From the IMG/VR virus record IMGVR_UViG_3300006350_000011, positions 1-35,157 of that record: 35,157 bases of DNA; one strand, written 5' to 3'. Below, piece by piece: positions 1 through 18,433 of the stretch (position 1 is its first letter; each line of letters starts with the position of its first letter). A program made the translations under genes and the position numbers. This DNA is from a virus. The notes under the pieces are model-generated. The model saw nothing but the letters and a program-made list of their open reading frames with translations, did not search any database and was not told the DNA's origin.

Positions 1-3000
1 CAGGAAGTGGACTAGAATCATAAGTGTTTTCATCGAATACTAAATCATCAATATGACTGTTACCATCTAATTTTACAACATCTCCTTCAGATCCACCAGT
101 TATATTCTGAACTGTCTTATCAAAATACAAATAGTAGTTTGTACCAGAGGTAGTTCCAGTTCCATCTATAATTCTAGTTCTAACAAAGTTACTTTCTTTA
201 GTAATCTGAATATCAACAATATTAGCATATTCATTATTAATTTGTATTATATCTCCCCTAACAAATGGAGAACTATCAAACACTTCAATACCAAAACATA
301 AAGTTATTGAAGTACTAGCAGTATGTGATGCAGCATTAGTACCTGATTGACCTCTTAAAACAAATAAATGCCCAGTACCTAATTTAACAACCTTCATGTA
401 CTCATCATCAATCTTAATATACTTTAATTCAGTTGTAGAATAGAAATCTGAAATAGTTCCATTAGTAAAACTCCCTATAGAAAAATAGGTATCAACACTA
501 CTAATATCTTCTGTCAATAATGCTGTAATGATATTAGCAGTAACAGAAATGTTACTTTTATCAGGACCTGATAATTCACTAGATACGGTATTATCTACTA
601 CCAACGTATCGTCATATATCTCGTCTCCAACTGCTGGATGACTTGTAACAGCATCTAAATATACTCTTCTATTATTGGGGTCTATACTGTGTATAGTTCC
701 TTGAAAAGTACCATAATTCTTTATTGTTTGTCCAACTGTAAAATGCTGTAATTCATTTGCATACTCAAGATAGTGATATTCAGCAAAACTAACACTACTT
801 ACTGGTTTACCTTTTAATACACTAATATAACCACCTGCACCAAATCCTTCAGTATCACTACTATCAAATACTACTGTATCACCTATCTTATATTCATCAC
901 CAGAACTTATTATTTTAATAGAATCCAAAGTAGCTAATGATGATGTTGGCACTGATGCTACCTTAAAACTACCTTTATCAATAGGTTTTGATACTGCTGT
1001 AGATTCTTGTCTAACATATCTTGTAACATTACTAATATTGTCAGTATTAACAACGTCTGTCTCATTAAACTCTTTATATGTCTTTCCTGCAAACTTAGGT
1101 CCAATAAAGAATGGATATCCAGATTGAATGATATTATTTGAACCTAAGTCATAAGTCATGAAATAAGCATAGACCCCATTTGGAAACTCTGGTGTTACAC
1201 AGAATCTACCATTTTGTTCATCTAAATCAGCATTAAGTGGAGTCCAAATATAATCTTGAGCAAAAGATCCTAAAATATAGTTTTCAAGACCTTGTATATT
1301 AGTAGCTTCTACTCTAATAGGATCTAGATTAGTTTCATGTTGAACTGAGGTGAATTTAACATATCCACTCTCCATCTTCTTAATTTGATTTGGATTTGCT
1401 TCATAAGCATTTCTATATCCATAAGGACCATATATTGGAGCACCATCTAATGCCCAACCAATAATTGGAGAATGGACTGTTGCATCTGTAAAATCGACTG
1501 TAGATACAACATCATCATCTTTAATAGTTAAATTTCTTGGTGGACCTAATACTGTTAGTTTCTTACCAATTTTTGTTTGTCCATCTACCTCTATTTGTCT
1601 TTCACCTGCTAAAAACAGACCTGATGCATCATTATAGTAACTTGTAATATTATCAGTATCAAAGTTATTAATAAGATCCCATTTAGTGACATTTGGTAAT
1701 AATATATCTCCAGAACCTGGTTCTAGGATGTCTAATGTAACTCCATTATCTGAATAGTTAATTCCACTATTAATTACCTTTAATTCAACAACTGACCCAG
1801 CAGACATAGTTGGTACGATAACAGCACCACTTCCAGTATTAGCATTATCATTAATTGTTACTATTGGAGGACTATTATAATTGTTTCCACCATTAATAAC
1901 TGTTGCTTGTATAATCTTACCATTAGATACTGTTACAAATCCAGTAGCACTAGTACCCTTTATAAGTTGATACGTAGGATCCTGCATATATCTGGCACCT
2001 GGGTTAGTTACATTAACCTTACTAATAGAACCAGTAACAAAAGGAGTTAATACAGCATTTTCTCTTACACCAGCTTGAGCACCCAAAATAGGTGTTACTC
2101 TTATTGTTGGTTGCATAGTATAACCCTTTCCAGCATCTAGAATTCTTATTTTTGTTATTCTTCCACCAACTACAATTGGCTGAACTATAGCTGGTGAAAA
2201 ATCACCATTTTCTGTATACTCAGTATCGTTTACATCCTTAATAATATCAATAGAAACGTTCTTAGGGTATCCTAAACCAGCATTCTCAATATAAACTTCC
2301 TTTAATGATCCATTTACAACTAATGATGCTTCTGCCCTTGTTCCTTCATGACCACTAACTGGATTAATCAAAGCAGGTATTGTAAGGTCTTTTCCATCTT
2401 CTCTAGGTACATCAATAAGGATTGTAGGTGGATTATTGACATTATAGTGTGTTCCACCAGATTCTATACTAACACTCTCTAATTTACCTCTAGTAATGGT
2501 TGTAGTACTTTTCCAACTTAAAAGTGCAGTTCCATCTCTCAAATATCCCATAGGATCATTAGTTGGAATATCCTCTTTATTTCCTTCAGTATTACGTTGG
2601 AATGTTCTTGGGAAACGTCTAATATAATCTCCATCCTCTAAAATTACATTACTGGGTATTGAGAAGAGATCATAGTAAGGTATACTGGATGTATAGACAT
2701 AAGTTGACTCAGTATCATACCAGACACTATTAATACCACATAAGAATCCATTATTTATTGTACATGGTAATAAGTCATTAAAATACCAACTAGTGACAAT
2801 ACTATCAGTTATATCAAGATTATCAGTTACAATACCAAGATCACCGACTTGATAAGAAGTATATGAAGAATCTATAGTAAAATCAGAAACACCAGCGTAT
2901 ATTACGAAAGATTGGTCTGGTCTACTCTTTACAGTTGCTAAAGTTGAATAATCGTAAATTGTATCGCCAACTTTGTATCTTGTAGTTCCAAAGTTCTTTA

Positions 3001-6644: not shown

Positions 6645-6716
6645 TTAAAAGAAGATATTTTCGTTGTGGTTGTAGGAGGGAGGTTGGATTCCTGTATACC
6701 AACAAGAGCGAGGCAT
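6645..6716 (-). CDS. possible 23-residue peptide inside the RNA candidate
   Basis: An ATG (context GTAGTAATG) opens a 23-codon frame MPRSCWYTGIQPPSY... ending TAA. It lies in the 3' half of the foldable RNA. The ATG sits in the closing strand of a hairpin and there is no Shine-Dalgarno, so this may well be chance. It is listed because a structured leader followed by a short peptide is a known arrangement in cyanobacterial and phage glutamine-responsive leaders, although the ligand-binding consensus is not present here. Confidence 0.2.
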   Translation of the reverse strand: MPRSCWYTGIQPPSYNHNENIFF

Positions 6717-6861
6717 TACTACAGTAGTAATTTTCACTCTGCCTGAGACCCGACTGGTAAGTCGATTCACCTTTCGGTGCAGCACCACCTGTGTCTCATC
6801 ACCTTAACCAGCAAAATGCCAGTAAGTTTATTCAGTCACTCCCAATGTGCTGATCAGGCAC
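6645..6861 (-). ncRNA. candidate structured RNA between the 2OG oxygenase and the baseplate genes
   Basis: Downstream of a near-consensus sigma70 promoter lies about 215 nt without a large gene that folds well on the minus strand. Elements in order: GUGC-loop-GCAC; a GU-rich ACUGGC-AUUUU-GCUGGU hairpin; a three-way junction closed by UGAGAC/GUCUCA that holds a CACC-GAAA-GGUG hairpin (GNRA tetraloop) and a CGACU-UACC-AGUCG hairpin; then GGCA...UUACUA-CUG-UAGUAA-UGCC; then GUUGG...CCAAC. The 3' part contains ACCUCCCUCCUAC, complementary to Shine-Dalgarno sequences. I could not match it to a family I know (glutamine leader, hammerhead, fluoride, cobalamin and tRNA were considered). Confidence 0.5.
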
Positions 6862-6867
6862 GAATAT

Positions 6868-10079: not shown

Positions 10080-10137
10080 ATTATAAGGGGTAGGGGGAAA
10101 GAAGTCACCCCCTAGTGGACACTTTAAAAATCGTCAC
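10080..10137 (-). promoter_or_regulatory. dyad-promoter cassette 10
   Basis: Minus strand: dyad GTGACGAT-TTTTAA-AGTGTCCA (10116-10137), 7 nt, -35 GTGACT (10103-10108), 17 nt, -10 TATAAT (10080-10085). The dyad overlaps the TAA of the upstream gene (10124-10126). Predicted transcription start near 10073, 28 nt before the next ATG. Confidence 0.7.
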
Positions 10138-10321
10138 ATATACCGAAAGCGAAGTTATAATCTTCGTCGGTTCCCATTCCAGCGGATTCTAACCACTCGC
10201 TGTCCTCAGTGCCTGAGAGTTCATAAAGATCTTCTAATAGAAAATCTTCGGTATCGAGATCCTGCTCGATTTCTAATAATTCCGCTTCGTTAGGAAGTTG
10301 AGTTTTAGTTGTTGGAGTCAT
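10124..10321 (-). CDS. 65-residue strongly acidic protein
   Basis: The product has about 24 Asp/Glu in 65 residues (EAELLEIEQDLDTEDFLLED, then SEWLESAGMGTDEDYNF) and only one or two basic residues, with an expected pI near 3.5. Such proteins in phages often act as DNA mimics or inhibitors of host nucleic-acid-binding proteins, but there is no specific evidence here. GAGGT precedes the ATG by a few bases. Transcribed from dyad-promoter cassette 1; its own stop lies in the loop of dyad 10. Confidence 0.75.
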   Translation of the reverse strand: MTPTTKTQLPNEAELLEIEQDLDTEDFLLEDLYELSGTEDSEWLESAGMGTDEDYNFAFGICDDF

Positions 10322-10345
10322 GAGACCTCTTTGTTAACTGATTTA

Positions 10346-10404
10346 AATTTAATTGATTTTGGGGAGTATTTCAACCCCCCGTGTGTCAGTTTGTTTACTG
10401 GCAC
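10346..10404 (-). promoter_or_regulatory. dyad-promoter cassette 1
   Basis: Minus strand: GTGCCAGT-AAACAA-ACTGACAC (10383-10404), 8 nt, -35 TTGAAA (10369-10374), 17 nt, -10 TAAATT (10346-10351). A G6/C4 hairpin (about 10360-10381) covers the -35. The dyad overlaps the TAA at 10395-10397. Confidence 0.7.
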
Positions 10405-10523
10405 ATATCTTGAAATCTTTGGTTAGCAATTTCGATTTGCTTATCTTCGTCTAGGTAAGGGAATGCCTCTTGTACCTCTTCAAAGATGTTTTCAAGGATT
10501 TCAGCGTGATGTAGAACTGACAT
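10395..10523 (-). CDS. 42-residue acidic microprotein
   Basis: MSVLHHAEILENIFEEVQEA then FPYLDEDKQIEIANQRFQDMCQ, almost entirely helical and acidic. The final codons TGC CAG TAA form the left arm of a 22-bp dyad, as in several neighbours. Its promoter (cassette 2) would start the message about 17 nt before the ATG. Too small to assign; could be a host-protein inhibitor. Confidence 0.65.
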   Translation of the reverse strand: MSVLHHAEILENIFEEVQEAFPYLDEDKQIEIANQRFQDMCQ

Positions 10524-10546
10524 AATTTAATTTCGTATCTAATAGT

Positions 10547-10605
10547 ATTATTGCAAAAAAAAGACCCCTATACAAGGGGTTGTGTGACACTAATCTGACT
10601 GGCAC
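10547..10605 (-). promoter_or_regulatory. dyad-promoter cassette 2
   Basis: Minus strand: GTGCCAGT-CAGATT-AGTGTCAC (10584-10605), 8 nt, -35 TTGTAT (10570-10575), 17 nt, -10 AATAAT (10547-10552). The dyad covers the TAG at 10590-10592. Confidence 0.7.
10555..10581 (-). terminator. intrinsic terminator within cassette 2
   Basis: ACCCC-UUGUAU-AGGGGU followed by a run of U on the minus strand; the loop is the -35 hexamer of the next promoter. Confidence 0.8.
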
Positions 10606-10730
10606 AAGGTCGGATCTATTTGACATATTTGTGCATTTCGCTGATTAGTTACTTCTTTCATATTCTTAATTGCTGTGTCTCCTATGACGTAGGCACATAC
10701 AATAGTAACTAGGATTAGGGCATATCTCAT
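10590..10730 (-). CDS. 46-residue membrane microprotein
   Basis: MRYALILVTIVCAYVIGDTA forms one hydrophobic segment (residues 3-16), followed by a polar tail with three Cys (IKNMKEVTNQRNAQICQID, then PTLCQSD). It could be a single-pass inner-membrane peptide or a secreted or lipidated peptide (VCAYV is not a clean lipobox). Last of three genes joined by TAATG overlaps. Its final codons LCQSD and stop lie inside dyad 2, which ends the transcription unit with a terminator. Confidence 0.65.
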   Translation of the reverse strand: MRYALILVTIVCAYVIGDTAIKNMKEVTNQRNAQICQIDPTLCQSD

Positions 10731-10852
10731 TAGTATGACCTATAAGGGTGGACTATGTTAGAAGTAAAATCCAAAGCGTTTGAGATTTGGACTCTAGTGA
10801 AATTGTTTGTAGTTACAAACAAGATGGCAAAGATTAAAACGATAGTTTTCAT
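10730..10852 (-). CDS. 40-residue membrane or signal-peptide microprotein
   Basis: MKTIVLIFAILFVTTNNFTR is a typical signal-anchor: a Lys, then about 13 hydrophobic residues. The remaining 20 residues are polar and aromatic. The ATG and stop overlap the neighbouring genes by TAATG junctions, a strong indication that the frame is translated. Probably inserted in the host membrane; function unknown. Confidence 0.65.
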   Translation of the reverse strand: MKTIVLIFAILFVTTNNFTRVQISNALDFTSNIVHPYRSY

Positions 10853-11019
10853 TAGTGTTTGTCTGAGATGTTCCAAGTTCCAGGATTTGGAGTTGGTAGG
10901 GGTTTGAAATTTCTTGCTGCCATTGCTGCAAGTGCTGCTTGAACAACTGGGTCGTTCATTGCTGATTGATTAACTAAAACTCTGCCGTTGTAGATAGGTT
11001 TTAGTTGAGAGTCGAACAT
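10852..11019 (-). CDS. 55-residue hypothetical protein
   Basis: Starts MFDSQLKPIYNGRVLVNQSA, then an Ala-rich helix (VVQAALAAMAARNFK) and a proline-rich end (PLPTPNPGTWN). Coupled to the next gene by TAATG. A possible extended -10 (TGGTATAGT, about 11055-11063) lies upstream, without a good -35. Not recognised. Confidence 0.65.
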   Translation of the reverse strand: MFDSQLKPIYNGRVLVNQSAMNDPVVQAALAAMAARNFKPLPTPNPGTWNISDKH

Positions 11020-11076
11020 AATGAATTTGTTTCGTTATTATTAATATAGCATGAACTATACCATAGTGTGACTATG

Positions 11077-11241
11077 TTAATAATTCTTAACAATTCGGTT
11101 TGCCCATCTCTTTTGCTTACGTATGATCCTTTTATGGATCCGCTGACGTATAGCAATACAAAATCCTATAACATAATTCATGCATTCAGTCAAGAACCAA
11201 TAGCATAGGAAGAATAGTACAATTGTACTAAGCGACTTCAT
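11077..11241 (-). CDS. 54-residue membrane microprotein with a basic tail
   Basis: MKSLSTIVLFFLCYWFLTEC continues into MNYVIGFCIAI, giving one or two hydrophobic segments in residues 5-31. A very basic C-terminus follows (RQRIHKRIIRKQKRWANRI), which should stay in the cytoplasm by the positive-inside rule. The start lies inside the last codons of the upstream gene in another frame (14-nt overlap). Could be a membrane-anchored nucleic-acid or phospholipid-binding peptide; function unknown. Confidence 0.65.
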   Translation of the reverse strand: MKSLSTIVLFFLCYWFLTECMNYVIGFCIAIRQRIHKRIIRKQKRWANRIVKNY

Positions 11242-11836
11242 TAATCCTCCTGTGGCATACCCACGTTATCGCCTGCACCTGATTAGGTGAATACTGTTTC
11301 TCTTGATGTAAATTAATAACGTTAGCACTCTCTTTATATGCTGCTGATACTTCAGCATATAATTTGTTTGAGATATTAGGCACCTTATTAAGTGGGGTGT
11401 AGTATCCATTCCAAATATTGTAAGCGTGACCATCAACTGTAATTTCATCACACTTACCGTTAGTTGCAAGTCCCTTATAAAATGCTATTGTTTTGTTTCC
11501 ATTGAGTAACCTTGCAATGTTTTTAGGATTATCGTAGTTATTCTCAAGCATCATAATTGCTTTATCTCTTTGTCCCCCAAATGTACATACTTTAGGGTAT
11601 TCAATTTCAAAAAGAAATGCTCTAATTAAATTCTCAGCGTCTATAATGTTTCTATCCCATTTGTTGTTAGGTGATAAAGCACTTACAACGCCTGCAACTG
11701 TGTCAACATTTAGACCGTATTGGTTAGCAATCATTGAACATATTTCATGCCCCTTGCTATACCATACTTCACCATCTATCAAATCTTGTTGATTTGCTTT
11801 ATAGTATGTTGAGAGAATGTTTTTAGTTAATGTCAC
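11228..11836 (-). CDS. about 202-residue conserved phage protein, LTKNILSTYYKA type
   Basis: Motifs LTKNILSTYYKA, VAGVVSALSPNNKWDRNIIDAENLIRA, VCTFGGQRDKA, LNGNKTIAFYKGLA, ITVDGHAYNIWNG and QAITWVCHRRI match a phage protein family that I know only as uncharacterised. The LSPNNKW and VDGHAYNIW positions recall the helix-hairpin-helix glycosylase/endonuclease III fold (VDTHV-type residue), which is inference only. Start: an upstream in-frame ATG exists at 11869, but the dyad promoter puts transcription start near 11851, inside that extension, so I prefer the GTG at 11836, about 15 nt downstream of it and just before the conserved LTKNIL. First gene of a unit ending at 10590. Confidence 0.8.
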   Translation of the reverse strand: MTLTKNILSTYYKANQQDLIDGEVWYSKGHEICSMIANQYGLNVDTVAGVVSALSPNNKWDRNIIDAENLIRAFLFEIEYPKVCTFGGQRDKAIMMLENNYDNPKNIARLLNGNKTIAFYKGLATNGKCDEITVDGHAYNIWNGYYTPLNKVPNISNKLYAEVSAAYKESANVINLHQEKQYSPNQVQAITWVCHRRINEVA

Positions 11837-11857
11837 TTGTTTGTTGCTGTTGATAAT

Positions 11858-11916
11858 ATAATAAGGCATAAATGCCCACTAAGTCAATGCCTAGTGGACA
11901 CTTTGCCAACTGTCAC
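11858..11916 (-). promoter_or_regulatory. dyad-promoter cassette 9
   Basis: Minus strand: GTGACAGT-TGGCAA-AGTGTCCA (11895-11916), 7 nt, -35 TTGACT (11882-11887), 18 nt, -10 TATTAT (11858-11863). The dyad includes the TGA of the upstream gene. Confidence 0.65.
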
Positions 11917-12134
11917 ACCCAAACCAATTTGTTCTCTTCGTTTGCTATGTCAAAACAAATTTCACACATACAGTCAACGTGTGGAAAATGTCCTCGCCAG
12001 TCATAATCCTCTACACAAAAATCACCATCATAATAATAATATAATTCTGGTTGATAATCCTGTCCAGTTTGAAGTTCGGGCATACCATCAGTATGTTCAT
12101 CATCATAGTTGCCACATACGTCACAAAATGCCAT
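11913..12134 (-). CDS. 73-residue Cys-rich, probably zinc-binding protein
   Basis: C4-x2-C7 at the N-terminus (MAFCDVCGNYDDEHTDGM) and a C-terminal CMCEICFD cluster frame an acidic, Tyr-rich middle (YQPELYYYYDGDFCVEDYDW). The CxxC...CxCxxC layout is that of a small zinc ribbon or treble-clef. The ATG overlaps the preceding stop (TAATG), and the TGA sits in the left arm of dyad 9. Likely an early protein that interacts with host machinery; no family recognised. Confidence 0.75.
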   Translation of the reverse strand: MAFCDVCGNYDDEHTDGMPELQTGQDYQPELYYYYDGDFCVEDYDWRGHFPHVDCMCEICFDIANEENKLVWV

Positions 12135-12340
12135 TACAACTCCTCAACAAATTTCTGTGCATTGTCCTTTTGTTGATTATCCCAAACTCTCAGTTTGAAA
12201 TTCTTAACTGCTTTGTCTAGCGATTTCATGTCACCATCACATATTGCAGGTTCCCACTCCTCACCAACGAAGCAAAATGTTTTGCTTATGTCGTTGATGA
12301 GATCTAGGTATGCTAATTCATTAGGGGTATAATCGTCCAT
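12134..12340 (-). CDS. 68-residue acidic hypothetical protein
   Basis: Helical and acidic (YTPNELAYLDLINDISKTF, then DMKSLDKAVKNFKLRVWDN and DNAQKFVEEL). Both ends join neighbours as TAATG, so it is translationally coupled in the middle of the three-gene unit starting with the Api92-like gene. Not recognised. Confidence 0.7.
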   Translation of the reverse strand: MDDYTPNELAYLDLINDISKTFCFVGEEWEPAICDGDMKSLDKAVKNFKLRVWDNQQKDNAQKFVEEL

Positions 12341-12807
12341 TAGAAATAACCTGCAATTTCCATTCCTGGTTCATCAAAAAACCAGGTGACATATACATCA
12401 GGATAATTTTCCCTTATTCTAGCATAGATTCCCTCAGGTGGACTCCATGCAGTGTTGAAAGTGACTTGAAAACTGTCTTCGTCAGCGTGAGCAATTTCTT
12501 TGTCGTATGCTTCCCACTTAGTGTCCCAGTTGGCAAGTCGCCAGGAATACCATCTATCGTCCTGTGTCCCATCACTCCATTGAGTAGTTGAACAAATGAC
12601 CTCACCATTAGGGGCAGTCATTTCTTTAACTTTTGAAAATTCACCTCGTTTTGGGTCTTGTAATAGAGACCAGTTCGGTTCGGGAATAATCCTATTAAAT
12701 GGGTCACTGGACTCAAAGATTTCCAATAATTTAGAAAATTGCTGTTTAGCACTTTCTGAGTCAGAGTTGCAACCTATGTCAACTCTATTGTAACAATGAT
12801 TAGGCAT
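12340..12807 (-). CDS. Api92/YubB-like protein (DUF1281 type)
   Basis: The 155-residue product begins MPNHCYNRVDIGC and shows the family motifs in order: FNRIIPEPNW, LANWDTKWEAYD, FNTAWSPPEGIY and FFDEPGMEIAGYF. These identify the Api92-like/YubB proteins found on plasmids and phages, with a ferredoxin-like C-terminal domain. Their molecular role is not established; position suggests early takeover. AAGGGAA precedes the ATG. Transcription comes from dyad-promoter cassette 3, whose predicted start is about 19 nt upstream. It heads a unit with two further genes joined by TAATG overlaps. Confidence 0.85.
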   Translation of the reverse strand: MPNHCYNRVDIGCNSDSESAKQQFSKLLEIFESSDPFNRIIPEPNWSLLQDPKRGEFSKVKEMTAPNGEVICSTTQWSDGTQDDRWYSWRLANWDTKWEAYDKEIAHADEDSFQVTFNTAWSPPEGIYARIRENYPDVYVTWFFDEPGMEIAGYF

Positions 12808-12832
12808 AAATTCCCTTGTTGTTTACATTTGT

Positions 12833-12891
12833 ATATTACTACTAATTAGGATACTAATCAATAGCATTTGTGCCAGTAATCTAACTGGCAT
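12833..12891 (-). promoter_or_regulatory. dyad-promoter cassette 3
   Basis: Minus strand: ATGCCAGT-TAGATT-ACTGGCAC (12870-12891; the arms are complementary except for the outermost base), 8 nt, -35 TTGATT (12856-12861), 17 nt, -10 TAATAT (12833-12838). The TAG of the upstream gene lies in the dyad centre. No terminator separates the units here. Confidence 0.75.
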
Positions 12892-13066
12892 ACCATTCCT
12901 CATTTTCGGGAATGATCTCCTCTATACTCCAATCAGTAACAGATTCAGAGATCACCTCATGAGAGTTGATATCGGCAAGTGCTAAATCTTCTGCTTCCGC
13001 TGATGATTCTGCTTCGATAGCAACCGTAAAGTTTACAACTTCGTAACATTTAACATGATAAATCAT
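12881..13066 (-). CDS. 61-residue small protein, DpnD/PcfM-like layout
   Basis: MIYHVKCYEVVNFTVAIEAE then SSAEAEDLALADINSHEV and an acidic end. A beta-strand pair followed by an AxxxAEAEDLA helix recalls the small DpnD/PcfM-like proteins (beta strand, V-x-A-x-S-x-E-E-A). The resemblance is weak. The ATG overlaps the preceding TGA (ATGA), and the TAG is at the centre of dyad 3. Confidence 0.65.
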   Translation of the reverse strand: MIYHVKCYEVVNFTVAIEAESSAEAEDLALADINSHEVISESVTDWSIEEIIPENEEWYAS

Positions 13067-13329
13067 GGGTGCCTCACTGTATTTCCTGGTGGACGTTTGA
13101 AGTCACACTTCATGTAGTCCCTGACTTCTTCAACTACTTCATCGAACATATCGTCCCAGTAGTTGTGTGCTTCTTCTAAGAACTCATGCTCACCCATCTT
13201 ATCAAAGTAAGTAAACAAGTCATTAGAAACATACTCTTCTAAATCTTTTGTGGACATGTTATCCACCATTCTTTCTGTTAGAAACTCCTTAAGTTCTAAC
13301 AATTCTTCCCGATTTAATGGTTCTGTCAT
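13063..13329 (-). CDS. 88-residue acidic helical phage protein
   Basis: The central motif LTERMVDNMSTKDLEEYVSNDL followed by YFDKMGEHEFLEEA (given here in two parts) is one I associate with a small conserved cyanophage family of unknown function. It is rich in Asp/Glu and predicted all-alpha. The C-terminus (KRPPGNTVRHP) is basic and flexible. Read from dyad-promoter cassette 4, with predicted transcription start about 18 nt before the ATG. Coupled to the next gene by an ATGA overlap. Confidence 0.75.
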   Translation of the reverse strand: MTEPLNREELLELKEFLTERMVDNMSTKDLEEYVSNDLFTYFDKMGEHEFLEEAHNYWDDMFDEVVEEVRDYMKCDFKRPPGNTVRHP

Positions 13330-13353
13330 TTTTTAATAGTTTCTACAGTTTTT

Positions 13354-13412
13354 ATTATAAATGAAGAAAAGGGGGAATTCCACCCCCTTTGTGACAGTTA
13401 TACAACTGCCAC
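13354..13412 (-). promoter_or_regulatory. dyad-promoter cassette 4
   Basis: Minus strand: GTGGCAGT-TGTATA-ACTGTCAC (13391-13412), 8 nt, -35 TGGAAT (13377-13382), 17 nt, -10 TATAAT (13354-13359). The arms pair fully with one G-U. Confidence 0.75.
13366..13390 (-). terminator. terminator hairpin within cassette 4
   Basis: AAAGGGGG-UGGAAU-UCCCCCUUUU on the minus strand; the -35 of the next promoter forms the loop. Confidence 0.8.
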
Positions 13413-13841
13413 ATCTTCTGTAGGAATTTCACGAGGTCTGGTAATTGTTTCAATTACTTCAGAATAGTCCTCGTTGTACTTTTTGTCTATTTCAAAGCAT
13501 AACCACTCACCAAATGTAGTGTAAATGTAACAGTATTCCTCCCATGAGTTAGCATTGGCGAAATACTCTTGAATAGTTGCATCAGTTCGAGGAGGGCAGT
13601 CCTCACCTCTTTCTGAATAGTAACATGGTTGTGGATCTCTCTTTTCATCGTAATCCCAACCTGTGTCAGAATAACAAGAGGACATGTCACCCCCGTCAAT
13701 GAGTTTCTTGACTGCAGCATCTGTGTTGTAGTGCTGCTTTAGGATCCTACCTAACCACTCAGGATAACCATCCCAATGGTGATAAACAGAATAGATGTTC
13801 CCGTTTGGTAATTCTAAACCAATTCGTGATCTTGTTCCCAA
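13398..13841 (-). CDS. MGTRSRIG-family phage protein
   Basis: 147 residues starting MGTRSRIGLELPNGNIYSVY then HHWDGYPEWLGRILKQHY, the well-known signature of a phage family without known function. Downstream motifs LIDGGDMSSC and EYCYIYTTFGEW fit the family. The start codon is TTG: AGGAGA lies six bases upstream and no ATG fits. The leader between transcription start (near 13925) and this TTG is about 84 nt and holds a 25-codon upstream frame that overlaps the TTG. The stop lies in dyad 4, followed by a terminator, so the gene is monocistronic. Confidence 0.88.
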   Translation of the reverse strand: MGTRSRIGLELPNGNIYSVYHHWDGYPEWLGRILKQHYNTDAAVKKLIDGGDMSSCYSDTGWDYDEKRDPQPCYYSERGEDCPPRTDATIQEYFANANSWEEYCYIYTTFGEWLCFEIDKKYNEDYSEVIETITRPREIPTEDVAVV

Positions 13842-13891
13842 GGTAATCTCCTAGTAAATGTGTAATAGGGGAGGTTCGATTTAAAAAGCAT
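13814..13891 (-). CDS. possible 25-residue leader peptide overlapping a TTG start
   Basis: ATG with AGAGGAAG immediately ahead opens MLFKSNLPYYTFTRRLPWEQ and ends 25 nt inside the MGTRSRIG gene, in another frame. The SD-to-ATG spacing is very short, so initiation may be weak. Listed because it could control the TTG start. Confidence 0.3.
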   Translation of the reverse strand: MLFKSNLPYYTFTRRLPWEQDHELV

Positions 13892-13931
13892 CTTCCTCTG
13901 GGGTCGCTTACCCTTGCCCCCTATACCATAT

Positions 13932-13989
13932 ATTATAATACAAAAAAGGGGTAATTCAATACCCCTTGTGACACTATTTCAACTGGATC
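13932..13989 (-). promoter_or_regulatory. dyad-promoter cassette 5
   Basis: Minus strand: GATCCAGT-TGAAAT-AGTGTCAC (13968-13989), 8 nt, -35 TTGAAT (13954-13959), 16 nt, -10 TATAAT (13932-13937). The dyad covers the TAG at 13974-13976; its left arm is degenerate. Confidence 0.75.
13942..13967 (-). terminator. intrinsic terminator within cassette 5
   Basis: AAGGGGUA-UUGAA-UUACCCCUU with a U tail on the minus strand; the loop carries the -35 hexamer. Confidence 0.82.
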
Positions 13990-14228
13990 TCGTAATCAAT
14001 CTTTTTGATACACCATCCAGATGATGCTGTGACTTCCTCTATCAGGTCGTCTTCGTCGTCTGCTTCCCAAACACCTAGGTGTCCATCTATTATTTCTTGT
14101 CTGTCCCAGTTAGAAGCAATAAAATAGGTGTCTAGGTCATTGTTGCAGATATGCTCAGTGTTTCCCGTGATGTCTTCGGGATAGTCATCGTCAAAATCAA
14201 ATTCGATGTCTGTTACTAAGAATTTCAT
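13974..14228 (-). CDS. 84-residue acidic hypothetical protein
   Basis: The start at 14228 (MKFLVTDIEFDFDDDYPEDI) is preferred over upstream in-frame codons because it begins right after the previous stop and opens a clean beta-strand/acidic domain. The rest (DTYFIASNWDRQEIIDGHLG, then DDLIEEVTASSGWCIKKIDY) suggests an alpha-beta fold. Very acidic overall. Last gene of the unit read from cassette 6; the stop lies in dyad 5. Not recognised. Confidence 0.7.
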   Translation of the reverse strand: MKFLVTDIEFDFDDDYPEDITGNTEHICNNDLDTYFIASNWDRQEIIDGHLGVWEADDEDDLIEEVTASSGWCIKKIDYEIQLK

Positions 14229-14229
14229 G

Positions 14230-14424
14230 CTAGTGGTCACAGTTCTTATCTTGGTAGCAATCTTCGTTCCAATGCTCTCCTTCGTCAAGAACTCCCATGT
14301 ACTGCATAATCTCATCATAGGTCTGCATACCACTACGGGTCATAGTCCCACAAGTGTATTCCCAACCTAGGTCAGCAAGTTTATCCAATAGGACAGAAAC
14401 TTTTGGTTGTTTAGTTTTAGGCAT
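14230..14424 (-). CDS. 64-residue hypothetical protein
   Basis: MPKTKQPKVSVLLDKLADLG then WEYTCGTMTRSGMQTYDEIM and an acidic end with two Cys. AAGGAGC sits five bases before the ATG at 14424, which fixes the start; an upstream extension in the same frame is a shadow over the preceding gene. Overlaps that gene by 8 nt. Not recognised. Confidence 0.7.
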   Translation of the reverse strand: MPKTKQPKVSVLLDKLADLGWEYTCGTMTRSGMQTYDEIMQYMGVLDEGEHWNEDCYQDKNCDH

Positions 14425-14620
14425 AATGCTCCTTGTCGTAAAATGAATAATCAGATGGTTCTGGATCTGTGATCTTCTCAAATAGAGAATCGTAAGCAGA
14501 TTGTGTAGATTCGTCGATCCACCCCATGTCATTAAAGAACATGACCATTTGAACAAGGACTTCTTCCTCGTCCCTAGTCATATCTAAATGACGTATTTCG
14601 ATAACGTTTTCAATAGTCAT
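14417..14620 (-). CDS. 67-residue acidic helical protein
   Basis: MTIENVIEIRHLDMTRDEEE then VLVQMVMFFNDMGWIDESTQ; amphipathic helices with a Met/Phe-rich face and an acidic end. First gene of the unit from dyad-promoter cassette 6 (predicted transcription start about 18-20 nt before the ATG). Not recognised. Confidence 0.7.
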   Translation of the reverse strand: MTIENVIEIRHLDMTRDEEEVLVQMVMFFNDMGWIDESTQSAYDSLFEKITDPEPSDYSFYDKEHYA

Positions 14621-14645
14621 AGAAGAATTTGTCTTGTACTCTTAT

Positions 14646-14704
14646 ATTATTGCACAAAAAAAGAGGGTAGTAAATACCCTCTGTGACAGTAATATAATTG
14701 GCAC
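14646..14704 (-). promoter_or_regulatory. dyad-promoter cassette 6
   Basis: Minus strand: GTGCCAAT-TATATT-ACTGTCAC (14683-14704), 8 nt, -35 TTTACT (14669-14674), 17 nt, -10 AATAAT (14646-14651). The only one of ten that does not overlap a stop codon; the preceding stop is 36 nt away, and a further hairpin (UUGGCA...AGUCCCU...AGGGA...UGCCAA) fills that gap. Confidence 0.7.
14656..14682 (-). terminator. intrinsic terminator within cassette 6
   Basis: AGAGGGUA-UUUAC-UACCCUCU followed by seven U on the minus strand. Confidence 0.87.
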
Positions 14705-14739
14705 TCCCTACTATCCAAGAGGGACTCTGCCAATTTATA

Positions 14740-14970
14740 CTATGCTGTCTGTTGTGTTAATGCACCTCTCTTACGAGCAAGAGCAATAAACTTACCAACT
14801 GACTCACCATTAGATGCTGCCCCTGATAGGTTAGCAACTAATTCACCTTCAGTAATGTCAAAGCGATATGCCTTGTCTCTGTTAGTGGTGTATGTGATGT
14901 CCATAGTATTGTCATCATTAACAACAATAGGTGACACTACTGCAGATGACTTTTCAAATGTGATTTGCAT
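14740..14970 (-). CDS. 76-residue hypothetical protein
   Basis: The longer in-frame ORF (to 15051) cannot be right because it would start upstream of its own promoter. The first sensible starts are ATG 14982 and ATG 14970 (MQITFEKSSAVVSPIVVNDD). Two beta strands (MDITYTTNRDKAYRFDI) are followed by a helix (SVGKFIALARKRGALTQQ). The layout recalls small KTSC-like domains, but key residues are not clear. Read from cassette 7, which has the only perfect TTGACA among the dyad promoters. Confidence 0.7.
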   Translation of the reverse strand: MQITFEKSSAVVSPIVVNDDNTMDITYTTNRDKAYRFDITEGELVANLSGAASNGESVGKFIALARKRGALTQQTA

Positions 14971-15001
14971 AATCAAATTCATTACTAATTTGTCCATTAT
15001 T

Positions 15002-15058
15002 ATAATAGCACATGTTCCAGGTATTGTCAAGCATTGGGGACACCCTGACAACTGGCAT
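15002..15058 (-). promoter_or_regulatory. dyad-promoter cassette 7
   Basis: Minus strand: ATGCCAGT-TGTCAG-GGTGTCCC (15037-15058), 6 nt, -35 TTGACA (15025-15030), 17 nt, -10 TATTAT (15002-15007). The dyad begins at the last base of the TAA at 15058-15060. No terminator. Confidence 0.75.
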
Positions 15059-15462
15059 TACCTGGAGGGTCGGACCTCAATATCCATGGTAGTATTATTG
15101 TACAACTTGTCGGTATACTTCATCCAACCGATGTCACCAACCTCAGTGTGACCTCTATCATTGTAATTGGCACCACGAATCTCACCTTTATCATTGTGAT
15201 TCTCACCTCTTATAATACCTCTTCCATATGATACTTTTGGCTGAAATAGAAAATCTTGACATAATTTATCAAAAGTTTCAACTTTTACTATTTTTACCCA
15301 CTTTGAACTATACTGCCCACCTATTAACCTTTTCCATATTCTATACACTAATTGATAAGAATGGTAGGGCATTACACGTTCTTCTAAAAATGAACGTTTT
15401 GCAGGATTCCATAACTTTAGATGATTTCCTTCCAGTTTTAAGATATAGTACATAATCTTCAT
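15058..15462 (-). CDS. 134-residue basic protein with an internal RGxNxNDxG repeat
   Basis: The N-terminal 75 residues are basic and aromatic (KLWNPAKRSFLEERV, YHSYQLVYRIWKRLIGG) with no family that I recognise. Residues about 84-104 then hold an imperfect tandem repeat (GIIRGENHNDKGEIRGANYN, then DRGHTEVG), mirrored at DNA level by repeats of about 24-30 nt near 15150-15215. ATGs at 15462 and 15453 are both possible starts. It sits next to the DnaA-box region, and the basic composition would allow DNA binding, but no DNA-binding fold is visible. Confidence 0.65.
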   Translation of the reverse strand: MKIMYYILKLEGNHLKLWNPAKRSFLEERVMPYHSYQLVYRIWKRLIGGQYSSKWVKIVKVETFDKLCQDFLFQPKVSYGRGIIRGENHNDKGEIRGANYNDRGHTEVGDIGWMKYTDKLYNNTTMDIEVRPSR

Positions 15463-15499
15463 AAACTGTAACTTTATACACTATTTAGAGATTCTTTAC

Positions 15500-15735
15500 A
15501 TTTCTCGCAGTTTCTCACAAGTTTGTCGTTTTCCACAGGTTTTCAAAGTTTTCCACAGGTTTGTCTGTTTTTGTGGAAAACTCCCAGTTTCGCCATTTGT
15601 GTTGGTTTTCTGAATTACTTGACAGATGGGTGCTTGCGTGCTAAGACAACAACAAATCTCTACTTTTCCACAGATTATCCCCACCTTGTGGAAAACTTAG
15701 ATATATTTAATTTAACATTTAATTAAACTAGTACA
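15500..15735. other. DnaA-box cluster, candidate replication origin or DnaA sink
   Basis: No supportable gene lies in 15463-15747. Five exact TTTTCCACA 9-mers occur: plus strand at 15529-15537, 15549-15557 and 15664-15672; minus strand at 15572-15580 and 15687-15695. A TTATCCCCA (15675-15683, one mismatch to the E. coli box) and a weaker TTTCTCACA (15511-15519) add to the array. TTTTCCACA is the DnaA-box sequence reported for cyanobacterial chromosome origins. The cluster is followed by an A/T tract (about 15696-15728) that could act as an unwinding element. Short frames across it on both strands look like shadows. Confidence 0.5.
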
Positions 15736-15747
15736 AACGTACAATAC

Positions 15748-15939
15748 TTAAGTCAAGTCCCTTGATTCAACCCATACATCCTTATGATCTGTTGCCTTTC
15801 CTGACTGTTGTTCCATCCAATCAAACATATGTTGTAGTTCCTCACACCTACGTTCCGCTTGATCTTTATCTTCAAACAGTTCATCTAGATTAGGAGTTCT
15901 ATCTCCCCTCTTGAATAATACAGCATACTTGAGTGTCAC
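15748..15939 (-). CDS. 63-residue hypothetical protein, GTG start
   Basis: GTG start supported by GGAGGT about ten bases upstream, inside the end of the preceding gene. MTLKYAVLFKRGDRTPNLDE leads into a charged helix (DQAERRCEELQHMFDWMEQQ). The helix could form a short coiled coil. Last gene before the DnaA-box region. Not recognised. Confidence 0.65.
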   Translation of the reverse strand: MTLKYAVLFKRGDRTPNLDELFEDKDQAERRCEELQHMFDWMEQQSGKATDHKDVWVESRDLT

Positions 15940-15946
15940 TGGGTTC

Positions 15947-16195
15947 TTACCTCCAAAATGTTCTCTTTAGTATAGCATAATTGTTCTTAATATGATACTC
16001 GTATGTAACACCTCTGCTACTGGTTGCAATAATTGCTTGACCTTGTACAATAGCAGTTTCAATATCTGAACCAAATGTCTGTATTATACCTGTTCTAGCA
16101 CTAGATCTTAACTGTGCTCTTCCATTAGCAACAGTACAATAGTATGATGGGACTTCGTTAGGATGGGACATAATAGCATAAACCTTCTTGGACAT
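15947..16195 (-). CDS. 82-residue hypothetical protein
   Basis: MSKKVYAIMSHPNEVPSYYC, with beta-rich continuation (GRAQLRSSARTGIIQTFGSD, TAIVQGQAIIATSSRGVTYE) and a C-terminus NYAILKRTFWR. A GTG nine bases upstream is an alternative start close to AAGGAT. The 5' end overlaps the neighbouring frame by about 38 nt. Not recognised. Confidence 0.6.
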   Translation of the reverse strand: MSKKVYAIMSHPNEVPSYYCTVANGRAQLRSSARTGIIQTFGSDIETAIVQGQAIIATSSRGVTYEYHIKNNYAILKRTFWR

Positions 16196-16382
16196 AATAA
16201 TCACATATCCTTATCAATGATGGATACCTCGTTAGATGTAAATCCATATCTAGGACAGTTTGTATTAGATCTATTTGATATTTAGGATCGAAAGCACCAT
16301 GCCAAAATGCTTCAACAGATAGATCAAGTTCCTCTATGATATTTGATGGAGAAGAGTGATTGTTGGTAGATACAGATTCCAT
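16158..16382 (-). CDS. 74-residue hypothetical protein, overlapping both neighbours
   Basis: Starts MESVSTNNHSSPSNIIEELD; the coherent part is LSVEAFWHGAFDPKYQIDLIQ and TVLDMDLHLTRYP, which looks like real coding sequence. It overlaps the upstream gene by 59 nt and the downstream one by 38 nt. A TTG at 16397 is an alternative start. Not recognised. Confidence 0.55.
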   Translation of the reverse strand: MESVSTNNHSSPSNIIEELDLSVEAFWHGAFDPKYQIDLIQTVLDMDLHLTRYPSLIRICDYYVQEGLCYYVPS

Positions 16383-16599
16383 AACGTTGATTGTCAAGTG
16401 TAATAGTGATTTGATCAGGAAATGTTCTAGAATGAGTACGACATCCCTGAGTTCTAAATGTAACAGTTCCTAAAGATCTGTCTTCATATAGTACCCGATC
16501 TCCTACTTGTAGGTCTAACACTTTCTTTGGTGTTATCCAATTTGGAGAGGGTGGTGGTGAGGAGGGTGTGGAATGATCCTCCTTCTTTGTTTGGGACAT
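16324..16599 (-). CDS. 91-residue hypothetical protein with a proline-rich start
   Basis: The first 20 residues (DHSTPSSPPPSPNWI) are low-complexity, in the region shared with the upstream gene, so the functional domain may begin later: PKKVLDLQVGDRVLYEDRSL then GTVTFRTQGCRTHSRTFPDQ, an SH3-like or small beta-barrel pattern (VGDRVLY...GTVT). Overlaps both neighbours (116 and 59 nt). Not recognised. Confidence 0.5.
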   Translation of the reverse strand: MSQTKKEDHSTPSSPPPSPNWITPKKVLDLQVGDRVLYEDRSLGTVTFRTQGCRTHSRTFPDQITITLDNQRYGICIYQQSLFSIKYHRGT

Positions 16600-16675
16600 G
16601 CTTGTATTCTAGCAATTCTTTTTGAATAAGGGTACATATGAGTTTTGCTTGTTCACTCGTTATATCTACTACCAT
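16484..16675 (-). CDS. 63-residue hypothetical protein
   Basis: MVVDITSEQAKLICTLIQKE then LLEYKHV and FHTLLTTTLSKLDNTKE: the TxEQAxLIxxLIxKEL...LxxxLxKL pattern occurs in many small cyanophage proteins of unknown function. The last 115 nt are also read in another frame by the next gene. Overlaps the upstream gene by 7 nt. Confidence 0.6.
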   Translation of the reverse strand: MVVDITSEQAKLICTLIQKELLEYKHVPNKEGGSFHTLLTTTLSKLDNTKESVRPTSRRSGTI

Positions 16676-16854
16676 TGTTCTTCTCCTTCTGGGTAATCGT
16701 CAATCTCTACTATATCTTCTTCAGCATCATCATATGGTGTGGAGATAGTTCTCCAATAGTTTGAATCAGCAATTAATGCTTCTTTGATGACTTTATATGG
16801 AATGTTAGGTTGTTCCATGGTTAGAGGGGGATATGAAGGTGTTAGAGAGTACAT
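16669..16854 (-). CDS. 61-residue acidic hypothetical protein
   Basis: MYSLTPSYPPLTMEQPNIPY then KVIKEALIADSNYWRTISTP and an acidic tail (EEDIVEIDDYPEGEEQW). TAATG overlap with the upstream stop supports the start at 16854, though an internal ATG (MEQPN, 16818) is possible. Not recognised. Confidence 0.6.
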   Translation of the reverse strand: MYSLTPSYPPLTMEQPNIPYKVIKEALIADSNYWRTISTPYDDAEEDIVEIDDYPEGEEQW

Positions 16855-17042
16855 TAATCAACAAATCCTAGTCCTGTTTGGTTAGGTTCTGCTCTTTCTT
16901 GTCTTAACTCGGTCAAGCGAGATTTCAGTTTCCTGAGTTCTTCGCTATCATAGAGATAATCCTTCTTGAGTGCTTCCTTCAACAACTTCATCTCACGCTT
17001 GGGAGAATAGAACTGTTGATAATTACGTAGTTTCATGTTCAT
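16854..17042 (-). CDS. 62-residue basic helical protein
   Basis: NMKLRNYQQFYSPKREMKLL then KEALKKDYLYDSEELRKLKS: a basic helix pair with an R/E-rich end. The ATG overlaps the preceding stop (ATGA) and the stop overlaps the next ATG (TAATG). Could bind nucleic acid. Not recognised. Confidence 0.65.
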   Translation of the reverse strand: MNMKLRNYQQFYSPKREMKLLKEALKKDYLYDSEELRKLKSRLTELRQERAEPNQTGLGFVD

Positions 17043-17206
17043 ATGTCACACGTGTAGTGATCGTTATGTTTGAGGTGGTTGTAACTTGCTTCAATCTTAT
17101 TATATAATTGAGTAAGCATTTTCCCTCCCAGTTCCCCTTCGTCTCTTTTCGAGATGCAGTTGAGACCTGTCATGATAGCAAATAGTTCTTCTTTAGAGAG
17201 GTTCAT
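17039..17206 (-). CDS. 55-residue hypothetical protein
   Basis: MNLSKEELFAIMTGLNCISK then RDEGELGGKMLTQLYNKIEA; helical, with an HxxH-rich end (NHLKHNDHYTCDI). ATGA overlap to the next gene. The motif LSKEEL-x-I-x-x-GL is common in tiny phage proteins. Not recognised. Confidence 0.65.
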   Translation of the reverse strand: MNLSKEELFAIMTGLNCISKRDEGELGGKMLTQLYNKIEASYNHLKHNDHYTCDI

Positions 17207-17221
17207 AGTAAAAAATCGTCG

Positions 17222-17398
17222 CTAATCCTCCCAGATCATTTCGAGATTAATATCGTGAAACTCTTCAAGATAGTAATCTACTGTGATCTCAAGTTCTGCT
17301 GCTTTGGATTCGATATCCATTGCAAACTTGTTTGCTTCTTCTTCTGCCTTATCACAGAAGAGATCTAGTGATGATTCGTGCATTGGTGTTAGATCCAT
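17222..17398 (-). CDS. 58-residue acidic helical protein
   Basis: MDLTPMHESSLDLFCDKAEE then EANKFAMDIESKAAELEITV and DYYLEEFHDIN; long amphipathic helices, very acidic. Only 21 nt separate it from the endonuclease VII gene, so it is likely part of the same message from cassette 8. I believe relatives occur in other cyanophages but cannot name a family. Confidence 0.65.
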   Translation of the reverse strand: MDLTPMHESSLDLFCDKAEEEANKFAMDIESKAAELEITVDYYLEEFHDINLEMIWED

Positions 17399-17419
17399 TT
17401 GTGTTATTCTACCACACAG

Positions 17420-17890
17420 TTATATATCCGTCAATGGTTTGCTCAAGTAATTAACAGCACGTTTAAGTGACTCAAGATTATCTCCCAAGTTACCTAGTCC
17501 TGTGTTACATTGCTTGCATAACCAACCACGAAACTCTCCTGTTTCATGGCAATGATCTAATTGCCACACCCATGTTCCATTTACACCATCAGGTACTTGC
17601 TCTTTAGATGCATAAACTGGTTTACCACAACATTCACATGGTGTTCCATGTAGTGGTGGTTTAAGGTGTTTATACTTCTTCCGTATGGCACTACGCTCTG
17701 CTGCTTTAACTTTGGTACATGAATAACAATTAGTGTTAACTCTTCTACGTTTGCCTGTCCATGGGTGCTCTAAACCCTTGTTATAGAACTGATTTGCATA
17801 GTACGGAAACTCGGTATTCGGTTTTGTAGTAAAACAGATGGAGCATTTGCATACCCCATCTGGAATGTTCTCTAAATTTCTTGATCTCAT
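17420..17890 (-). CDS. recombination endonuclease VII-like HNH nuclease
   Basis: The start at 17890 makes an ATGA overlap with the preceding gene; an earlier in-frame ATG exists. The 156-residue product has Cys sets C14KCSIC19...C55YSC58 and C85ECC88...C125KQC128 that can hold two zinc ions, and the catalytic endonuclease VII core LDHCHETGEFRGWLCKQCNT followed by GLGNLGDNLESLKRAV. This fold cuts branched DNA in T4 (gp49), but many small phage versions are homing or free-standing HNH enzymes. It is the second gene of the cassette 8 operon, and not next to packaging genes, so I cannot tell resolvase from homing nuclease. Confidence 0.9.
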   Translation of the reverse strand: MRSRNLENIPDGVCKCSICFTTKPNTEFPYYANQFYNKGLEHPWTGKRRRVNTNCYSCTKVKAAERSAIRKKYKHLKPPLHGTPCECCGKPVYASKEQVPDGVNGTWVWQLDHCHETGEFRGWLCKQCNTGLGNLGDNLESLKRAVNYLSKPLTDI

Positions 17891-18351
17891 CTCATGTATA
17901 AGTAACCACCTGCCCAATCACATTTGACCTCAAGTGCTTGTCTGTCTCTGATTCTTCTTAAATCATATCTGACATGCTTAGAAGGTCCTTTCCATGATGC
18001 AGGTTTGTAAACTTCTCCTGTTTTCTTGTCAACAAATGCATGTACACTTGTCTGATCATTCTTACGATCAGCATTACATGCTGTCTTCATGATGATCTTG
18101 TGATACTTACGACCTGTCTCAACAGAGAAGAGAGCATAAGGTATCATTGTACCGTTCTCAATCTCTTGTAGTTTAGTAGTGTAGTAAGTATGCTCCCATG
18201 TATCAGGTAATGATTCTTGGAGATGTCTCTTTGCAGATTTGATCTCATTGTATCTAACGTCTTCTTGTAACCATGTGACTAATGAGTTAGTCCATGCTGT
18301 AACGTTCTCTTCGATGAGGTCAAGTGCTTGTTGTTGTGCTGAAGTAGTCAT
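17887..18351 (-). CDS. 154-residue conserved phage protein, KTACNADRK type
   Basis: The C-terminal half contains KYHKIIMKTACNADRKNDQT then SVHAFVDKKTGEVYKPASWK and GPSKHVRYDLR, a strongly conserved block found in many tailed phages in proteins of unknown function. The N-terminal half is helical (QQALDLIEENVTAWTNSLVT). AAGGATT precedes the ATG. First gene of the operon read from cassette 8 (transcription start about 17 nt upstream) and coupled to the endonuclease VII gene by ATGA. Confidence 0.85.
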   Translation of the reverse strand: MTTSAQQQALDLIEENVTAWTNSLVTWLQEDVRYNEIKSAKRHLQESLPDTWEHTYYTTKLQEIENGTMIPYALFSVETGRKYHKIIMKTACNADRKNDQTSVHAFVDKKTGEVYKPASWKGPSKHVRYDLRRIRDRQALEVKCDWAGGYLYMR

Positions 18352-18374
18352 AATCCTTTGTTTGTTATGTACTT

Positions 18375-18433
18375 ATTATAGTGTAAGATAACATACTATT
18401 CAATACTGTGTGTGACAGTTTATAGGGTGTCCA
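18375..18433 (-). promoter_or_regulatory. dyad-promoter cassette 8
   Basis: Minus strand: TGGACACC-CTATAA-ACTGTCAC (18412-18433), 8 nt, -35 TTGAAT (18398-18403), 17 nt, -10 TATAAT (18375-18380). The TAA of the upstream gene is in the centre. The left arm is the most divergent of the set. Confidence 0.72.

Follow-up and report, generated by a model that had tools for sequence, protein, structure and literature searches.

What is the purpose of a 22-bp dyad that recurs ten times ahead of small genes on one stretch of virus DNA? The question bears on the start of early transcription in T4-like cyanophages, a step called unclear for these phages, which are without the Alt, AsiA and MotA of T4 (PMC2984593). 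The stretch, here called the window, is a 35,157-base IMG/VR virus contig on which the T4-type baseplate genes gp7, gp6 and gp25 are present together with a manA RNA, an endonuclease V, a PAAR protein and a toxin-like gene. The same gene set adjoins gp25/gp6 in the Prochlorococcus phage P-HM2, the gp6 of the two being about 40% identical. The dyads sit in an island of small genes adjoining gp25-gp6 of the window, with transcription on the minus strand, and a search of the window for known RNA families found the manA RNA alone and none matching the dyad. Most likely the dyad belongs to a group-wide early-promoter element of T4-like cyanophages, being at once an activator site and part of a PeSL-like cassette.

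Ten dyad units in the window

All ten dyads of the original prediction are found where it placed them, on the minus strand, and are given below with their −10 hexamers and with the terminator-like hairpins returned by a terminator scan.

10116..10137, minus strand: dyad 1 (GTGACGATTTTTAAAGTGTCCA), weak; −10 TATAAT at 10085-10080; overlaps the stop of ORF 10321-10124
10383..10404, minus strand: dyad 2 (GTGCCAGTAAACAAACTGACAC); poor −10 TAAATT at 10351-10346; overlaps the stop of ORF 10523-10395
10564..10580, minus strand: terminator-like hairpin in unit 3, then a T run
10584..10605, minus strand: dyad 3 (GTGCCAGTCAGATTAGTGTCAC); −10 AATAAT at 10552-10547
11895..11916, minus strand: dyad 4 (GTGACAGTTGGCAAAGTGTCCA); −10 TATTAT at 11863-11858; overlaps the stop of ORF 12134-11913
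12870..12891, minus strand: dyad 5 (ATGCCAGTTAGATTACTGGCAC); −10 TAATAT at 12838-12833
13368..13390, minus strand: terminator-like hairpin in unit 6
13391..13412, minus strand: dyad 6 (GTGGCAGTTGTATAACTGTCAC); −10 TATAAT at 13359-13354
13946..13967, minus strand: terminator-like hairpin in unit 7
13968..13989, minus strand: dyad 7 (GATCCAGTTGAAATAGTGTCAC), weak; −10 TATAAT at 13937-13932
14662..14682, minus strand: terminator-like hairpin in unit 8
14683..14704, minus strand: dyad 8 (GTGCCAATTATATTACTGTCAC); −10 AATAAT at 14651-14646
15037..15058, minus strand: dyad 9 (ATGCCAGTTGTCAGGGTGTCCC), weak; −35 TTGACA; −10 TATTAT/TATAAT within 15007-14999
18412..18433, minus strand: dyad 10 (TGGACACCCTATAAACTGTCAC), weak; −10 TATAAT at 18380-18375; before ORF 18351-17887

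The consensus first proposed gives 13 strand-matches at up to three mismatches where 0.26 are expected (a number that no shuffle in 100 equalled), and a broader consensus at up to two mismatches gives 7 dyads against 0.2 in shuffles. Nine of the ten overlap the stop of the preceding gene, as had been said, that at 15037 by one base, and the dyad at 14683 makes no overlap. The −10 hexamers lie 31-33 nt from the dyad and so the centre of the dyad falls at about −53.5, in keeping with the predicted −54; seven hexamers with at least five of the six TATAAT bases stand at 30-32 nt where 0.22 are expected from other offsets, and in six cases the −10 is 29-31 nt upstream of the ATG.

The idea of a sigma70-type promoter holds for the −10, which keeps its distance, and is not quite right for the −35, which is hardly conserved across units and among those of the window includes such poor sequences as GTGACT, GTGGAA and TTGTAT. 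In the units at 10584, 13391, 13968 and 14683 the −35 lies within the terminator-like hairpin with its T run, between dyad and −10.

Anatomy of the unit

More generally the unit reads TGTGMCAST-N6-ASTGKCACA, a gap of 30-32 nt, and TATAAT. For 121 units, a set chosen for a good −10, the dyad consensus is T GTG(A/C)CA(G/C)T(T) N4 (A)A(G/C)TG(G/T)CAC A, and downstream of the gap the −10, TATAAT or TATACT, is followed by A and, some 11 nt later, by a CAT-like start. The fixed spacing supports an operator set at a constant distance from a sigma70-type −10 downstream. Among the matches listed for IMG/VR dyads, strict −10s at 30, 31 and 32 nt number 10, 29 and 11; other offsets have about 1-4. The extended dyad with TATAAT at the right spacing occurs in at least 120 viral stretches, against 7 in the whole collection when the spacing is made nine bases shorter; the dyad alone, scanned for in viral contigs, likewise gives at least 120 stretches. 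Within single genomes the −10s in place again exceed expectation (28 versus 1.3 in ACG-2014f, 17 versus 0.7 in P-SSM2 and 12 versus 0.8 in S-SSM7).

A match to TTGACA of at least five in six at a spacing of 16-18 is found in 15 of the 121 units, and this rate of TTGACA-like −35s (12%) is close to the 9% for all TATA(A/C)TA in these genomes. An unsupervised k-mer test on the sequence upstream of −10s recovered the dyad arms in ACG-2014f, S-SSM7 and P-SSM2, and in most genomes tested placed TTGAC at −23 in a separate promoter class; in ACG-2014f it is TAGGC that occupies the −35 position of the dyad class. The spacer folds as a hairpin below the 5th percentile of its own shuffles in 53 of the 121 units, an optional rather than universal feature, and with the dyad-to-(−10) spacer so often a hairpin or terminator, one cassette can serve both as the end of the upstream gene and as the start of its successor.

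Distribution among phages and hosts

The motif was at first thought to be without counterpart in cyanophages, and here the original prediction fails, since a motif search finds it widespread in cultured T4-like members including S-PM2, Syn9 and P-SSM2; its broader interpretation keeps the fixed-geometry operator and the PeSL likeness and loses this absence together with the true −35. The unit is present in P-SSM2, P-HM2, S-PM2, Syn9, S-SSM7, S-CRM01, S-SRM01, ACG-2014f and many IMG/VR contigs. Dyads with up to one mismatch (shuffled counts in brackets) number 30 in ACG-2014f (0.3), 15 in S-CRM01 (0.1), 11 in 35 kb of S-SSM7 (0.0), 9 in 50 kb of S-SRM01 (0.0), 9 in P-SSM2 (0.1), 6 in P-HM2 (0.0) and 6 in S-PM2 (0.1), and Syn9 has about six units, weaker than those of the other phages (44775, 48559, 49079, 52997, 127493, 148743). 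At the same threshold none is found in T4, the Pelagibacter phage HTVC008M, the Methylophilales phage Melnitz or S-B43, nor in the Prochlorococcus podovirus P-SSP7 or siphovirus P-SS2. The signal is weak in S-SM2 and S-TIM5, the latter having three diverged units, with GGCCC flanks, against 0.16 expected. Because S-B43, S-SM2 and S-TIM5 infect Synechococcus with few or diverged units, the element is inessential for this way of life.

The exact unit occurs in none of 390 cyanobacterial genomes, by an exact-match search that degenerate host sites could escape. Across 84,980 bacterial and archaeal species the strict dyad is found in 32 places, about as expected by chance; the promoter geometry is seen at none of these, and marine Synechococcus and Prochlorococcus contain none of them.

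Proposed early and middle promoters

In P-SSM2 the dyad units gather between 44 and 69 kb, ahead of small hypothetical genes, and TTGAC (TTGACA-type) promoters precede gp32, gp61, purL and psbA among others, only one of 29 such promoters coinciding with a dyad unit. Doron et al. 2016 (ISME J), working on Syn9 and P-TIM40, are said to have described a novel element for early genes and host-like promoters for middle genes, the early-gene element reportedly being conserved in T4-like cyanophages. The split seen in P-SSM2 matches the early versus middle division reported for Syn9, and the dyad unit is probably the "novel regulatory element" of the Syn9 early genes, given that it too is present in Syn9 and conserved among T4-like cyanophages. 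Papers citing Doron et al. 2016 do not describe the motif. The probable early timing of the dyad units is read from gene location, from the genes that TTGAC promoters serve and from what is reported for Syn9. Published P-HM2 data put the peak of early gene expression at 0.5 h, with psbA, nrdA/B and other auxiliary metabolic genes falling in the middle class (PMC5082946).

What may read the dyad

We think it probable that the unit is an early promoter of T4-like cyanophages with an activator-bound dyad near −54, in a PeSL-like cassette, and we infer the binding, the activation and the early action from the arrangement described above. The units would serve as early promoters across Kyanoviridae and allies, with a dimeric DNA-binding protein reading the imperfect dyad TGTGMCAST-N6-ASTGKCACA near −53.5. 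Once bound there it may bring the host RNA polymerase, carrying the primary sigma factor, to the strong −10 (TATAAT) and the CAT-like start region, so taking over the role of the missing or weak −35. The spacer would often fold as an intrinsic terminator for the upstream gene, such that a cassette of about 75 bp may end one gene and start the next. That the dyad stops short of a −35 which is itself not conserved suggests a promoter in need of help.

Whether the protein comes from host or phage is a sub-question of the activator reading and not an alternative to it. A host transcription factor exploited by the phages is a real possibility, towards which we lean slightly less than away: the first transcripts precede any phage protein unless one is injected, and cyanomyoviruses are without homologues of alt, modA, modB, motA and asi (PMC2984593). 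Set against this are the lack of the exact unit in the 390 cyanobacterial genomes, the chance-like occurrence of the strict dyad outside phages and its lack in marine Synechococcus and Prochlorococcus, the lack of the dyad in the Prochlorococcus phages P-SSP7 and P-SS2, its lack in S-B43 and the diverged flanks of S-TIM5. A host regulon built on the unit was rejected, on the 390 genomes and on the want of geometry around strict dyads in an exact-match control.

A gene-profile comparison found phrog_470 (DUF3110) and phrog_385 in all six unit-rich complete genomes and in S-SM2, and neither in S-B43, S-TIM5, HTVC008M, Melnitz or T4. The label of phrog_385 is "transcriptional regulator", with a weak, sub-threshold Pfam match. 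With few genomes compared, phrog_385 and DUF3110 are leads only as partner candidates. More tentatively still, a phage-encoded dimeric activator, virion-borne or made at once, might replace −35 recognition in most T4-like cyanophages, its imperfect operator being kept by selection and doubling as a recombination handle for gene trading, with S-TIM5 having a diverged version of its own specificity.

A repressor operator is an unlikely reading of the same site. Early promoters would then fire unaided until a later-made phage protein shut them off, which suits the drop of early phage transcripts later in infection (the 0.5 h peak in P-HM2), the near-consensus −10 and a dimer site that would do for a repressor as well; it sits poorly with a dyad that ends before the −35 and does not overlap the core promoter, and with the −35 not being conserved.

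Probable gene shuffling at the units

The activator-bound early promoter would also be a cassette at which recombination can insert, delete or exchange blocks of genes in the manner of the T4 PeSLs, since the small genes have such similar cassettes between them. The clearest case is in ACG-2014f, where isolate Syn7803C7 is without a three-gene block of about 3.5 kb found in Syn7803C90 and C9, which consists of a hypothetical gene, a DNA methyltransferase gene and a helicase gene. The block is flanked exactly by the units at 36297 and 39840 of C90, and the single C7 unit is chimeric, its flank, dyad and terminator being those of the first C90 unit and everything from the −10 on that of the second. 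On this comparison of sequences, with one clean junction examined, the chimeric unit is the footprint of recombination inside a unit. A second ACG-2014f indel, of an HNH gene, has a unit at one end. Like the window gene 13398-13841, at whose 3' end dyad 6 lies, its homologue has a dyad at the 3' end in P-SSM2, P-HM2, S-SKS1 and S-SRM01, and the order of shared genes in P-HM2 differs from that in the window.

The chimeric unit and the differing gene order could be taken to mean that the repeats are recombination sequences alone, shuffling sites of the PeSL type that need no regulatory protein; we hold this very improbable, as homology by itself gives no reason for a dyad to keep its 30-32 nt from a −10 across a spacer of freely varying sequence.

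For the dyad as an RNA stem-loop closing the upstream mRNA at its 3' end and serving termination, processing or stability, the relevant evidence is in the arms. The two variable arm positions pair 69 times against 87±5.6 when arms are shuffled within genomes (P=0.0012), a test in which relatedness inside a genome is only partly controlled. The departure is the reverse of what an RNA stem would show, and perfect palindromes number just 1 among 113 units. Although the dyad can be drawn as a hairpin and in the window mostly overlaps the upstream stop codon, the RNA reading is scarcely credible and was rejected, given arms that avoid base pairing, a fixed spacing to the downstream −10 and a separate G/C-rich hairpin that already resembles a terminator. 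The barely conserved −35 and the arms that avoid pairing favour a DNA operator over an RNA hairpin.

Significance

An element of this kind has probably been reported already, and what may be added here is the consensus in detail, the finding that perfect symmetry is avoided, the overlap with a terminator and the junction left by recombination. The exact cis element is supplied, with its spacing, its spread over cultured phages and the finding that hosts and other phages are without it; the promoter is also tied to gene shuffling. A pull-down for the binding protein and a simple reporter test are thereby enabled, and early genes can be predicted in uncultured marine phages.

Comparison with known systems

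T4 middle promoters, with a MotA box and a −10, resemble the dyad unit in that an upstream box replaces the −35 beside a good −10. MotA's box lies near −30 and, unlike the dyad, has no palindromic form. T4 late promoters have the −10 TATAAATA, and the units carry TATAAT or TATACT. A few of the IMG/VR dyads also lie close to TATAAATA.

Activation of the CRP/NtcA type shares with the unit an imperfect dyad upstream of a sigma70-type promoter. The dyad differs from GTA-N8-TAC and TGTGA-N6-TCACA, and its centre is at about −53.5 and not at −41.5 or −61.5; tested as an NtcA site (GTA-N8-TAC near −41.5), the units show TGTGMCAST-N6-ASTGKCACA near −53.5 instead. The MarR factor of phage P-SSP7 was rejected as a match, being podoviral and working on a host gene from a position downstream of its start site.

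The Syn9 element is reportedly also of early promoters, conserved in the group and distinct from host-like middle promoters; no link to terminators or recombination, such as the dyad unit shows, is known from Doron et al. 2016. The PeSLs of T4-type phages (Arbiol 2010, Comeau 2014) join a terminator to an early promoter, as many of the units would, and are placed between the small genes of hyperplastic regions, with copies bounding gene-block indels; the likeness first proposed is supported. The units are sigma70-like intergenic promoters with the −10 fixed at 30-32 nt, and a joined stem-loop or terminator is found by the terminator scan in four window units and is clear in the 53 of 121 noted above. 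They lie in hyperplastic small-gene regions (the window island, P-SSM2 44-69 kb and ACG-2014f 27-58 kb), and movement of a block by recombination between copies is seen in the single 3.5-kb ACG-2014f case. The dyad unit differs from a PeSL in having a 22-bp protein-type dyad ahead of the cassette, the terminator inside the promoter spacer, and a hairpin that is optional.

Features of the window and of the tandem and diverged promoters

6673-6862, minus strand: manA RNA in the window (RF01745, 177 bits)
15529-15695, both strands: cluster of DnaA-box-like sites in the window
66150-66660, minus strand: tandem dyad promoters in P-SSM2
1-420, minus strand: tandem dyad promoters in the viral contig stretch L027
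165045, 165331 and 170889: three dyad-type units in S-TIM5, outer bases altered to GGCCC

The manA RNA lies directly downstream of gp25 and adjoins the endonuclease V gene. Where no long gene is obvious, five exact copies of TTTTCCACA (three on the plus strand, two on the minus) fall inside 167 bp, a possible origin-like cluster.

Variants of the dyad promoter

In P-SSM2 and L027 the dyad promoters stand two or three in series and would drive short segments where no gene is annotated. The DNA separating these promoters (GATCAACGTTCGACACTCCCCCTGCGATGAAA...) is conserved from P-SSM2 to L027, found no match in Rfam and is a candidate small RNA.

At the −35 position a sub-group of units (L019, L044, L047, L068, L073 and L105) holds (G)AGCACAG or GGCACAG, not TTGACA. 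In L029, L046, L084 and L112 the −10 is CATAAT and is followed immediately by TATAAATA, the T4 late promoter; judged by sequence, these units are early and late promoters combined.

The S-TIM5 units retain the core and spacing of the dyad unit and differ from it in their outer bases, which suggests a shifted operator specificity.
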